Positions 60,714-64,000 of a DNA stretch of 64,000 nucleotides are shown piece after piece; positions within the stretch are counted from its first letter, which is position 1; the number at the start of each line of letters is the position of its first letter. Location of the stretch: assembly GCF_001889165.1 (NCBI RefSeq), contig NZ_CP016020.1, positions 1,028,501-1,092,500 on the forward strand. The letters run 5' to 3'. Below the pieces are notes generated by a model. It was given only the letters and a program-made list of their open reading frames with translations, did no database searches and was not told where the DNA came from. The position numbers and the translations under genes were made by a program. The DNA comes from Bacillus weihaiensis. GTDB lineage: Bacteria > Bacillota > Bacilli > Bacillales > Bacillaceae.

Positions 60714-61067
60714 GAAAACGACTAATATAGGAAGGCTTTGTATTTGTAATGTTCTATGATCTGTTTCTTTTCCTCCGTGTAACTGTGCAAGATTGTTTCC
60801 ATGCTGTTACGCCAAATTGAAGAGTGTGAATGCAACAACTCAACAAAGTTACATAAAGTTCCGCTTCTTTTTATGAACAAATCCACTTATTTTACATACT
60901 TTGAAGAAAGAAGGATATGTGAACATCATAGCTTCATACGTAAATTGAGCAGGGAGAGTCATATGCTTCTTTGGGGATCTAAGTGTTTATTAGCACATTT
61001 TAGTGGAAATAAAGTCAATATAGAAAAAATGGACGTAGTAAAAGCTGAATTCGTAACGCTTTCTGTC
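60714..61067. other. Gap sdhB-gerE; ysmA not present
   Basis: About 350 bases without a supported gene. A plus-strand frame (60801-61091) has no ribosome binding site and runs into the SigK promoter. In B. subtilis the thioesterase-like gene ysmA lies here; nothing resembling it is visible. Confidence 0.45.
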
Positions 61068-61095
61068 ACAGAGTACCTTGAAACCACATAGAATA
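61068..61095 (+). promoter_or_regulatory. SigK promoter of gerE
   Basis: ACA (61068-61070), exactly 16 bases, then CATAGAATA (61087-61095). This fits the SigK consensus AC-N16/17-CATANNNTA at every defined position, and gerE is a classical SigK gene. Confidence 0.8.
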
Positions 61096-61159
61096 TGTTG
61101 ACTAAATATATACCCATCCGTTAGATCAGCTCTCACCTTAGCAAGGAGGGTTACAATAC

Positions 61160-61336
61160 TTGAAAGAGAAAGAGTTTCAATCAAAGCCACTACTCACGAA
61201 AAGAGAAAGAGAAGTATTCGAATTGTTAGTTCAAGATAAGACAACTAAGGAAATTGCTAGTGAGCTCTTCATAAGCGAAAAAACGGTTCGAAATCACATC
61301 TCGAATGCGATGCGTAGTAATTGCAAACTCGAATAA
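61160..61336 (+). pseudogene. gerE: gerE, 5' part only: interrupted or truncated
   Basis: GerE is a 74-residue LuxR-type regulator that acts last in the mother-cell sporulation cascade. A TTG at 61160, 9 bases after AAGGAGGG, opens a frame whose first 51 residues (MKEKEFQSKPLLTKREREVF ... EKTVRNHISNAM) match B. subtilis GerE as I recall it. After codon 51 the frame reads only RSNCKLE and stops at 61336; the end of the DNA-binding domain (QKLGV..RSQAVVELLRMGEL) is missing. The SigK promoter and ribosome binding site are intact. Options: an intervening element inserted in codon 51-52 to be excised during sporulation, or an internal deletion (the KLE end may be the original tail). The usual followers ysmB and racE are not seen. 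Confidence 0.85.
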
Positions 61337-61365
61337 AGCTTGATAAATCAACCTTTCTAATTGAA

Positions 61366-61393
61366 TAAAACTTTGTAGGGCAGTCCCTTAACG
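61366..61393. repeat. Possible array repeat, copy 0 (weak)
   Basis: AAAACTTTGTAGGGCAG followed by TCCCTTAA resembles the repeat copies further right (core TTRAACTAWAGGGCAG) and includes an AGGG/CCCT hairpin. It lies 30 bases after the gerE frame ends. Confidence 0.35.
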
Positions 61394-61427
61394 ACACATG
61401 CATATAGTGTCATTGAGGTGATGCAGC

Positions 61428-61547
61428 ATGAGCCAGTCGTCTTCTCCGTTGAAGTTGGGTAAAGAAACCTATGGAACGATGAAAATTGAAGAAGCATTTT
61501 TGAAAGCACTTGAGTTGTACTTTGGGAGAAGTAAGAAATCGGATTAA
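61428..61547 (+). CDS. 39-residue hypothetical protein
   Basis: An ATG at 61428, 5 bases after GAGGTGAT (61415-61422), opens a 39-codon frame beginning MSQSSSPLKLGKETYGTMKI and ending in a basic YFGRSKKSD. It is soluble with a short helix-like centre (EEAFLKALELYF). I recognise no family. The consensus ribosome binding site supports it. It is the first gene after the gerE junction. Confidence 0.5.
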   Translation: MSQSSSPLKLGKETYGTMKIEEAFLKALELYFGRSKKSD

Positions 61548-61616
61548 ATAGGGAAGGTTGCGAAGCTGTTCTTATTTAAGGTATCTAGGTAGGAAAAAAC
61601 ATTTATTGATGAAAAT

Positions 61617-61654
61617 AAATGCAGAGGGATTTCAAAAAATCTCACTGCATTTTT
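61617..61654 (+). terminator. Terminator after the 39-codon gene
   Basis: AAATGCAG (61617-61624) pairs with CTGCATTT (61645-61652), with an inner GATTT/AAATC helix, then T residues. It makes an overlapping 75-codon frame (61558-61785) unlikely. Confidence 0.75.
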
Positions 61655-61763
61655 GTATGAACAAACAAGATTATTTATTAGATGTGTTTCAAGGTGTAAA
61701 TTTAGATGTTATTGATTTACATAAAAAATTGGATATTTATGTTAAAATAATTGATATCATTTA

Positions 61764-61803
61764 TGAAAAAATGTACTTAAACTAAAGGGCAGGTTACTTG
61801 AAG
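61764..61803. repeat. Array repeat, copy 1
   Basis: The first 21 bases (61764-61784, ending ACTTAAACTA) recur exactly at 62426-62446. After the core AAGGGCAGGT, the arm TACTTGAAG (61795-61803) partly complements CTTAAACTA (61776-61784). It lies between the 39-codon gene and the DinB-type gene. Confidence 0.6.
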
Positions 61804-61871
61804 AACAAGGAATGATAACAATGCTTATCGAATATTTGTAATGTTAAAATTCTAGAAAAGGGTGGGAATTT

Positions 61872-62399
61872 ATGAACGAACAGATTCGTTTTCCTATAGG
61901 TCAATTTGAACCATTACAGAATCCAACTTCAGAACAACGTAACAAATGGATTCAGGAAATTTCAGAATTACCGAAACTCCTTCGGCTTACAGTACAAAAC
62001 CTATCTATTGAACAACTCCATACGCAATACCGTCCTGGTGGCTGGACTATTCAACAGGTAGTTCACCATATGGCTGATAATGATATGAATGCCTTTATCC
62101 GTTTCAAAAAAGCACTAACCGAAGATAACCCAATTGCAAGTTCTTATCGAGAAGATTTATGGGCAGAATTGAGCGATTATCAAAATACGCCGATTGAAAC
62201 ATCTTTAAACCTTATTGAATCAATCCACTGTAGATTCGTAATATTATTCTGTTCATTATCCACATATGACTTTGAAAGGACATTTAAGAGTCCTACACAC
62301 GGCTTAATGAATCTAGATGTTGCAACACAAAGGTATGCTTGGCACGGTAGACATCATATTGCACAAATTGAGGCTCTTAAACAACGTATGGGTTGGTAA
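61872..62399 (+). CDS. DinB-superfamily YfiT/BstA-type putative metal enzyme
   Basis: A 175-residue four-helix-bundle protein similar in outline to B. subtilis YfiT (a bacillithiol-transferase-like DinB protein): FPIGQFEPLQNPTSEQRNKW at the start, YRPGGWTIQQVVHHMADNDM at about 52-71, and WHGRHHIAQIEALKQRMGW at the C terminus. The three histidines of the metal site are expected in VVHHMAD and WHGRHH. Substrate unknown. AAGGGTGGG precedes the ATG. It lies between two array repeats, so it is accessory DNA rather than part of the conserved core. Confidence 0.88.
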   Translation: MNEQIRFPIGQFEPLQNPTSEQRNKWIQEISELPKLLRLTVQNLSIEQLHTQYRPGGWTIQQVVHHMADNDMNAFIRFKKALTEDNPIASSYREDLWAELSDYQNTPIETSLNLIESIHCRFVILFCSLSTYDFERTFKSPTHGLMNLDVATQRYAWHGRHHIAQIEALKQRMGW

Positions 62400-62425
62400 T
62401 TCGATAGCCTTTTTTTAAAAGATTG

Positions 62426-62446
62426 TGAAAAAATGTACTTAAACTA
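62426..62446. repeat. Array repeat, copy 2
   Basis: An exact 21-base copy of 61764-61784, continuing TAGGGTGC in place of AAGGGCAG and running straight into the terminator at 62452-62484. It follows the DinB-type gene. Confidence 0.6.
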
Positions 62447-62451
62447 TAGGG

Positions 62452-62484
62452 TGCTTTCCTTAAAGAAAGGGAAAGCATTTTTTT
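62452..62484 (+). terminator. Terminator after the DinB-type gene
   Basis: TGCTTTCC (62452-62459) pairs with GGAAAGCA (62470-62477), followed by seven T residues. Confidence 0.82.
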
Positions 62485-62492
62485 GTATCAGT

Positions 62493-62523
62493 TATTGAAC
62501 TATAGTGGCAGGTTAGTTCAACA
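62493..62523. repeat. Array repeat, copy 3
   Basis: The most symmetric copy: TTGAACTA (62495-62502) and TAGTTCAA (62514-62521) are perfect 8-bp arms around TAGTGGCAGGT. It lies just before the membrane-protein gene at 62569. Confidence 0.6.
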
Positions 62524-62568
62524 AAAGTATAGTTTTTATGGGAAAATAAATTGAGGAGGGTTTAAATT

Positions 62569-62937
62569 TTGAAGTATATCGCTATGCTTATAATCTTCTG
62601 TTTTACAATATTATTCGTTTATGATTACTTTCCAAATAATTCTCTATTAGTGGAAGTGCCAAAGTCTGTATTTAGTTTTCTTGTTATTGGATTGTATTTA
62701 GTAAGTATGTTATTCAAAAGGAAAAGAAGTGTTGATAGTAAAAATGTATTAAAGTGGCAAGTATTTACTATTGTTTATATCCTTTTTCTAATGGGGTTGT
62801 TTACCATTTTAGGCGGGGAATCGACTACTGGAATATCATTTAGTAATGGTTACTTTTGGATTGTATTATTTATAGCACTTATCGGAATATTTTTTCAATG
62901 GAAGAAGGTTAGGAATTCACAATCAGTATCCAGTTAA
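62569..62937 (+). CDS. Hypothetical four-span membrane protein
   Basis: A 122-residue protein with four hydrophobic segments (about 3-20, 30-50, 63-85 and 95-112), a basic loop RKRSVDSKN between spans 2 and 3, and a short basic tail. TTG start at 62569, 8 bases after GAGGAGGG (62553-62560). I recognise no family. It sits between array repeats 3 and 4, with AT-rich codon use like other accessory genes here. Confidence 0.7.
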   Translation: MKYIAMLIIFCFTILFVYDYFPNNSLLVEVPKSVFSFLVIGLYLVSMLFKRKRSVDSKNVLKWQVFTIVYILFLMGLFTILGGESTTGISFSNGYFWIVLFIALIGIFFQWKKVRNSQSVSS

Positions 62938-62954
62938 ATTTTTGATTAATATAA

Positions 62955-62975
62955 CTTATTAAACTATCGGAGCAG
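62955..62975. repeat. Array repeat, copy 4, interrupted by a group II intron
   Basis: CTTATTAAACTATCGGAGCAG matches the left arm and core of copies 1-3, then switches directly to the group II intron 5' end (GCGCGAC). The right arm is presumably beyond the intron, outside the window. Confidence 0.5.
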
Positions 62976-64000
62976 CGCGACAAGTTTTGTCATAAGCGCT
63001 TATGTGTGAAAAGACAAGGGATTTCTACGGAAATCCTAACTTCATAACCGAGGATAGGAATGATAAAACCACGTATTTTGAAACTATCCCATTAATATTC
63101 CTGCATGCGTCATAATTGACTGATTATGGGGTCTGGAGCTCAGGTGAAGTCGGCAGAACAAAGGCTGAAGCCATTCCGTGTGGAAAGGGTATGCCAATGG
63201 ATATGCCGGATGGCTGAAAAACTAAATATGGTGAGAATTATCTTGTGGAAAAGAACAGACGAACTTCCGAATGTACGGGTCTAGAGTTACGAGCAATAGG
63301 AAACTATTGTCCCATCGTACGATGGGGTGAGTGACGTAGAGTAAAAATTGCTCCTCTGAAACACGTTATATCGAACTATGGCGATATCCAGCTCACAGGC
63401 TTACAGGAAGCACCTAAGTTTAGAATGGATAGCTAGGTTATAAGGTACTTGGAAAGTAAGGGACGTTGATTCAAGGGCTGTCACCCAAAACGGTTGCTAT
63501 AAGTTTATGACGAAATGCATTTGTCCTTATGAGGGTAGGGGTACGACTGGTGAAGCCTTTGTAATGAAGGTGGAGGAACAGCCCCAAGTCTAGCGATAGT
63601 TTTAATTATTTTTCAAATGTGCATTGCACCGGTCGGGTAAGAACGTGGGAACATCACTTCATAAAGGAATGATGCCACAGTGCAAGCTCTACGATACTGG
63701 GATTATTATGATATGACTGACACCTTTACAGACTTACATCAACGGGCAAAAAATAAAGAAACGTTCCATTATCTATACGACATTATCACGTCGAGGAATA
63801 ATATTTTATTAGCTTATCGAACAATTAAGTCAAATAAAGGGTCGAAGACTCCCGGTACAGATGGGAAAACCATATTAGATATCGAGAAACGAACCGAGAA
63901 TGAATTAATAGAAGAAGTACAGAGACAGCTCAAGAATTATCGTCCAAAGAAAGTAAGACGGAAACTGATAGAAAAAGATAATGGCAAAATGCGACCATTA
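62975..64000 (+). mobile_element. Group II intron, 5' part
   Basis: The 5' end reads GCGCGACAAG, close to the GUGYG consensus (position 2 deviates). It is followed by about 735 bases of structured, non-coding RNA rich in group II domain I-III motifs (for example the GGAATGATAAAACC and GGTCTGGAGCTCAGG regions, and GTACGGGTCTAGAGTTACGAG), and then by a reverse-transcriptase ORF from 63713. The 3' half, including domains V and VI, is outside the window. The exact 5' boundary is inferred from where the array repeat ends. Confidence 0.85.
63713..64000 (+). CDS. ltrA: Group II intron reverse transcriptase/maturase, N-terminal part
   Basis: The frame is open from ATG 63713 to the window edge (96 codons). 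It has the RT-0/RT-1 region of LtrA-type proteins: NILLAYRTIKSNKGSKTPGT followed by DGKTI, then LKNYRPKKVRRKLIEKDNGK and MRPL, which leads into the polymerase fingers. The full protein would add polymerase motifs (YADD), a maturase X domain and probably an HNH endonuclease. It splices and mobilises the host intron. Confidence 0.88.
   Translation, partial: MTDTFTDLHQRAKNKETFHYLYDIITSRNNILLAYRTIKSNKGSKTPGTDGKTILDIEKRTENELIEEVQRQLKNYRPKKVRRKLIEKDNGKMRPL

Follow-up and report, generated by a model that had tools for sequence, protein, structure and literature searches.

A split gerE gene in Bacillus weihaiensis with a predicted gin-type intervening element, and gerE interruptions across the Bacillales

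Described elements and the present locus

In Bacillus cereus ATCC10987, gerE is split by gin, an element of 28.6 kb; its excision by GirC plus GirX has been published (PMC5595907), and its cleavage was predicted at the 3' AA of CATCTCAAA, gerE nt 138 to 146 (Abe et al. 2017, PMC5595907). Skin in sigK, SP-beta in spsM and vfbin in spoVFB likewise join a late mother-cell gene to a serine-recombinase element, as in the locus described here, and in SP-beta a small directionality factor stands behind a mother-cell promoter (PMC4191935, PMC6957869). The target genes of these three differ from gerE, and SP-beta is an active prophage. In the published accounts consulted, interruption of gerE is on record for B. 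cereus, B. toyonensis, one prophage of B. glycinifermentans and one phage of Paenibacillus larvae (PMC5595907, PMC12453123). The P. larvae phage Xeni_IDv2 is reported to integrate in gerE, the target of the present element too, with a 9-base duplication (PMC12453123). No report of an order-wide pattern of gerE interruption was found in the open-access literature, subscription papers and preprints lying outside the search.

The present locus lies near the end of a window of 64,000 nucleotides (the whole stretch analysed, C1:1028501-1092500, C1 being contig NZ_CP016020.1) in the 4.36-Mb genome of B. weihaiensis (two contigs, 99.99% complete). As in gin, gerE was split with a predicted crossover at the AA of nt 145-146, and both elements carried two adjacent serine recombinase genes with a distant third, restriction-modification genes and palindromic att arms. 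Their sizes were 28.6 kb (gin) and 27.8 kb (here), and close to the 5' part of gerE each had a small ORF (42 aa in gin, 39 aa here), alike in size and position; the one here belongs to a conserved family and is a putative homologue of B. cereus GirX. The overlap was CATCTCAAA in gin and AATGCGATGC here. A group II intron and Lamassu-type genes set the present element apart from gin, the recJ of gin had no counterpart among the proteins scanned, and the host genus differed (gin in B. cereus, the present element in Metabacillus).

The gerE element described in B. glycinifermentans is a prophage (PMC5595907), whereas phage structural families were absent from the 19 proteins of the present element scanned with Pfam, products of its longer ORFs other than the specificity subunit. 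In L049, another strain of B. glycinifermentans, the gerE 3' half stood beside a GirC-like recombinase with 53% identity to the GirC-like protein of B. weihaiensis; B. cereus GirC is given as 52% identical to that of a further strain (BGLY; PMC5595907). All features of gin that could be tested were found in the present element, and the order-wide pattern is the more interesting result.

The halves of gerE and the element between them

The frame at 61160-61336 opened with TTG and encoded 58 aa, namely 51 GerE residues followed by RSNCKLE and a stop, confirming the first-pass annotation, in which gerE was cut after codon 51 with a stop seven codons later. A strong ribosome binding site (RBS) preceded this frame, and upstream of it stood a promoter resembling the sigma-K consensus. 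Similar upstream CACA and CATAGTATA elements and an identical RBS were present before the intact gerE of the genus-mates G001 and G002, so that the earlier view of a preserved promoter and RBS held.

61067..61095, + strand: sigma-K-like gerE promoter (CACA at 61067-61070, 16-bp spacer, CATAGAATA at 61087-61095)
61160..61305, + strand: 5' half of gerE, opening with TTG and comprising codons 1-48 plus AA of codon 49
61304..61313, + strand: core AATGCGATGC, common to the 3' junction at C1:1117640; predicted crossover at AA 61304-61305
61309..61328, + strand: right arm of the element att site, GATGCGTAGTAATTGCAAAC, an imperfect inverted repeat of GTTTGCAAACACAACGCATC at the 3' junction
61304..64000, + strand: gerE-intervening element, the part inside the window; it continues to C1:1117639, followed by the gerE 3' half

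With GerE as the query against the genome itself, residues 44-74 were matched at C1:1117625-1117717 (87% identity), on the same strand as the 5' half; the other matches were several LuxR paralogues (25-48% identity), and the full GerE query found no intact gerE in this genome. The annotation had proposed an element inserted in gerE with the 3' end far downstream, and the 3' part was found in the orientation foreseen, the crossover points of the two junctions being 27,836 bp apart. A short repeat shared with the region 61300-61320 had also been suggested, and AATGCGATGC occurred at both junctions. Neither of two further contrary findings that had been named, a second intact gerE and racE directly after the truncated gene, was made: a MarR-family gene and racE (glutamate racemase), then ORFs in the positions expected for gerM and rph, adjoined the distant 3' half instead. 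The names ysmB, gerM and rph near this half are presumed from synteny.

Joined at AATGCGATGC, the two halves gave a 74-aa GerE identical to those of G001, G002 and Bacillus sp. SKDU12. Codon differences of the joined gene were all synonymous (6/6 against G001, 14/14 against G002, 36/36 against SKDU12), in agreement with the earlier argument against an old pseudogene. An overlap of 10 bp common to both junctions together with exact restoration of 74 aa is not expected by chance, and, judged by its distant 3' half and its codons, gerE of B. weihaiensis is a split gene and no pseudogene.

The crossover is predicted at the AA of gerE codon 49, the same dinucleotide as in B. cereus gin. The arms of the present element (left of attR, right of attL) paired at 19/24 positions about the AA at gerE nt 145-146. 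The sequence CATC, slightly left of the core, was also common to both junctions, and a crossover there would put Thr for Ser at residue 48; because CATC is shared in this way, the prediction depends on where the palindrome is centred and on which residue is restored. A junction near 61312, as first annotated, fell within the shared core 61304-61313, with the crossover itself more likely at AA 61304-61305 than exactly at 61312. Across 13 elements, 168/260 arm positions paired at the AA centre, compared with 33-77 at eight other offsets tried. Summed over 24 positions per element, pairing was 196/312, against 108 on the gerE side and a mean of 82.5 (maximum 110) with shuffled arms; the 13-element sums include a SKDU12 row mis-centred by one base (5/24; 19/24 when correctly centred) and M. 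bambusae arms taken from junctions on different contigs. Pairing at the AA centre was weak in G016 (12/24) and G023 (13/24).

The element, 27.8 kb in size and inserted in gerE codon 49, contained the following.

61378..61404, + strand: promoter-like motif GG..GTCC-N14-CATA, upstream of the girX-like ORF
61428..61547, + strand: girX-like gene, 39 aa, beside attL; candidate recombination directionality factor, with homologues in relatives
61872..62399, + strand: cargo, YfiT-family bacillithiol transferase (NCBIfam NF009807, 217.5 bits, cut-off 160)
63035..64000, + strand: cargo, start of a group II intron (Rfam RF02004), which runs on to about C1:1094110
From 63680 to beyond the window end, + strand: cargo, group II intron reverse transcriptase (Pfam RVT_1)
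C1:1102723-1105591: cargo, type I methylase and specificity subunit
C1:1105926-1107410: girA-like recombinase gene, 494 aa, overlapping the girB-like gene
C1:1107392-1108990: girB-like recombinase gene, 532 aa, overlapping the girA-like gene
C1:1111276-1115032: cargo, defence-type LmuA/LmuC/LmuB-like genes (Lamassu, ABC-3C)
C1:1115468-1116934: girC-like large serine recombinase gene, 488 aa, beside attR, right of the girA/girB-like pair

Two of the three serine recombinase genes, girA-like and girB-like, form a putative operon because their frames overlap. The large serine recombinase that had been expected near either end was the girC-like gene beside attR. Its product was full length with conserved motifs and had Resolvase, Recombinase and zinc-ribbon domains (Pfam); it was 51-62% identical to three relatives, in which gerE was also split. 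Both the girC-like and the girX-like frames were open. The putative function of the girX-like product as a directionality factor is taken from the published account of B. cereus GirX (PMC5595907).

The recombinases did not reach CcrA/B/C identity, the best score being 172.3 bits against an NCBIfam equivalog cut-off of 900. Among the matches listed (8 of 70 plasmid records), the girB-like protein was 22-28% identical to its plasmid relatives, and pMC319 was absent. The cargo also included a PDC-S11-like protein, and no restriction subunit was found among the element proteins scanned. A further copy of girX, together with the DNA upstream of it (C1:1098228-1098372), had 88% DNA identity to the first and a stop after 9 codons, which suggests a composite or tandem history of the element. 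Elsewhere in the genome, sigK was considered as a further split gene and ruled out, being a single uninterrupted frame that scored above the TIGR02846 cut-off.

Proposed excision in sporulation and competing readings

Very probably, the locus contains a gin-type element in gerE codon 49 that is excised in sporulation by the GirC-like and GirX-like proteins, restoring gerE. For integration, the GirC-like recombinase would have joined the att site of the element to codon 49 of gerE, at its AA dinucleotide. In sporulation, GirC and the GirX-like protein, a small directionality factor, would be produced in the mother cell and would reverse the reaction; attL and attR would then recombine into an intact chromosomal gerE and an excised circle. 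GerE would be produced from the sigma-K promoter, and the forespore would retain the element for inheritance. Both the timing of expression and the excision in B. weihaiensis we infer by analogy.

The assembly showed the integrated form only, which is also to be expected of a trapped element, one that disrupts gerE, is not excised in sporulation and leaves GerE-deficient spores; in the relative Neobacillus jeddahensis (L064), girC was internally deleted. A trapped element is nevertheless quite improbable here, as the girC and girX frames were open and both gerE halves differed from those of relatives only synonymously, though the 3' half lacks its own start. The window itself held only a short truncated frame, as would result from a simple internal deletion or decay of gerE. 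The first-pass annotation had offered such a deletion, of 45-50 bases, with KLE as the original tail, and this part of it failed: the deletion was rejected because an intact 3' half lies 27.8 kb further along and KLE comes from the element, within the right arm of its att site, so that a deletion has practically no chance. As the analysis was based on the assembly, a chimera with foreign DNA placed between the gerE halves deserves mention. However, gerE was broken at the same place with similar ends in assemblies from many genera, and the genome was in two contigs at 99.99% completeness, so that a chimera is hardly conceivable.

The element may also have originated as a defective prophage, in which cargo has taken the place of phage genes behind a phage integration unit. 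Relatives of GirC in phage CBP1 (55% identity), in a phage-like circular record of B. altitudinis (46%) and at 40 IMG/VR loci speak for this origin, and the absence of phage structural families from the 19 proteins scanned speaks against it; it is a doubtful possibility, with some weight. If true, it would change the origin of the element and not the switch. The excision of a gin-type element with restoration of gerE would apply in either case.

Split gerE and GirC relatives across the order

Among 60 close relatives (B. weihaiensis included), the 5' half only was the best match in 5, and both forms were present in G034. In a sample of 299 genomes from the order, 287 matched GerE at E <= 1e-18, and gerE was split, always at one place, in at least 12 of the 287 with B. 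weihaiensis and at least 11 of 286 without it. Candidates were chosen by the best E-value among the matches listed, and were counted as split if the 5' part alone matched and the 3' part lay elsewhere (G000, G023, G044 and nine more). The halves were on one contig in 11/12 split genomes, 4.1-50.2 kb apart, and on two contigs in G172; the 5' match ended at residue 51-54 except in G124 (residue 59). Two of six low scorers of genus g89 were checked, and both had a full-length divergent gerE. With gerE split at one place in at least 12/287 genomes, late mother-cell control by DNA excision looks recurrent, and in such genomes gene finders will call gerE lost or truncated.

In SKDU12, a contig of 41,346 bp started with attL and ended with attR, and the whole gerE with its upstream flank was on another contig. 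This assembly is compatible with a culture containing the element in both states, excised and integrated, and gives indirect evidence of excision in a relative; a strain mixture or an assembly effect is a possible alternative source of the two gerE forms.

One scan of a genome collection, with a four-sequence GirC alignment as the query, gave 44 GirC loci. By motif search, the gerE 3' half was found at 31, the 5' half only at 3, an intact gerE at 1 and nothing at 9; several of these nine were cut by contig ends, and one of them, SKDU12, had attR at its contig end. A gerE half was thus present at 34/44 loci, in 24 genera as named in the records (one Roseburia-named record uncounted), and both halves were present at 7, spaced 5.1-10.8 kb. 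In IMG/VR, the 3' half was present at 11/40 GirC loci (3-kb flanks), and phage CBP1 contained gerE residues 1-61 (77% identity). The existence of natural GirC elements of about 5 kb suggests that girX, girC and att sites are nearly sufficient for the switch. An adjacent recombinase pair was not seen in M. bambusae, G044 or SKDU12 and is therefore not general for GirC elements. Compared with Cytobacillus firmus, the girC-attR end had 89.4% identity over 2,524 bp and the adjoining host stretch 68.3% over 1,099 bp; because of this difference, the girC-attR end is considered to have moved between genera.

Homologues of the girX-like gene were found in M. bambusae (E 5e-15) and G044 (E 4e-9), in 16/44 GirC loci (E <= 0.05; flanks <= 10 kb), and also in SKDU12, phage CBP1 and a B. 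altitudinis record. In PHROGs, girX-like proteins matched families of unknown function weakly. A search of both strands of 108 loci, which overlapped in part and amounted to 1.36 Mb, gave 14 occurrences of the motif GG(2-4)GTCC-N14-CATA, compared with 1, 5, 1, 3 and 0 matches in five block-shuffled sets, and 12/14 occurrences preceded a girX-like ORF, the exceptions being L088 and L090. This count measures specificity and is no independent discovery, because the motif was picked after the girX upstream regions had been viewed. The exact motif was missing from several of the 23 girX upstream regions: GAATA replaced CATA in SKDU12, and the GTCC part deviated in thermoactinomycete genera, Shimazuella, AFS001701 and the decayed second copy of B. 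weihaiensis. The CATA resembles sigma-E and sigma-K -10 boxes, and the -35 part is not known to match any consensus.

In G016 and G023, gerE was split at the same place by recombinases with 52% mutual identity and 30% identity to the GirC-like protein of B. weihaiensis, and girX of the latter had no match in either genome. By these identities, the G016 and G023 recombinases are a second lineage splitting gerE at the same place. The integrase of the P. larvae phage Xenia, taken by its name as a relative of that of Xeni_IDv2, was 46-47% identical to them and 29% to the GirC-like protein. The AA centre of the Xenia attP paired at 12/22, no better than two other nearby centres.

Taken over the order, it is likely that codon 49 of gerE serves as a standing attachment site throughout the Bacillales. 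The GirC/GirX integrase family, borne by temperate phages, by gin islands and by mini-elements of about 5-11 kb, would make of gerE a recurrent developmental switch, in which a conserved girX promoter would tie excision to sporulation, and an independent recombinase lineage (G016 and G023, related to the Xenia integrase) would have converged on the site.

Several GirC loci had unusual arrangements. The circular B. altitudinis record L070 (NZ_CP124832.1), filed as a non-mobilizable plasmid, carried an AimR-family gene and a GirC-like recombinase besides phage structural genes, with an AA-centred att-like palindrome at its closing point (21/24); the record possibly represents the circular form of a phage that targets gerE. 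In N. jeddahensis L064 (9771-14114), the internally deleted girC was followed by an att-like palindrome, with girX about 2.7 kb further on, an arrangement suggestive of a composite element, either tandem or decayed. In L028, L044 and L058, girC and the gerE 5' half were in one locus on opposite strands and the module order was reversed. In L068 (Sporolactobacillus laevolacticus), an intact gerE stood about 5 kb from a girC match limited to residues 4-398, possibly a remnant.
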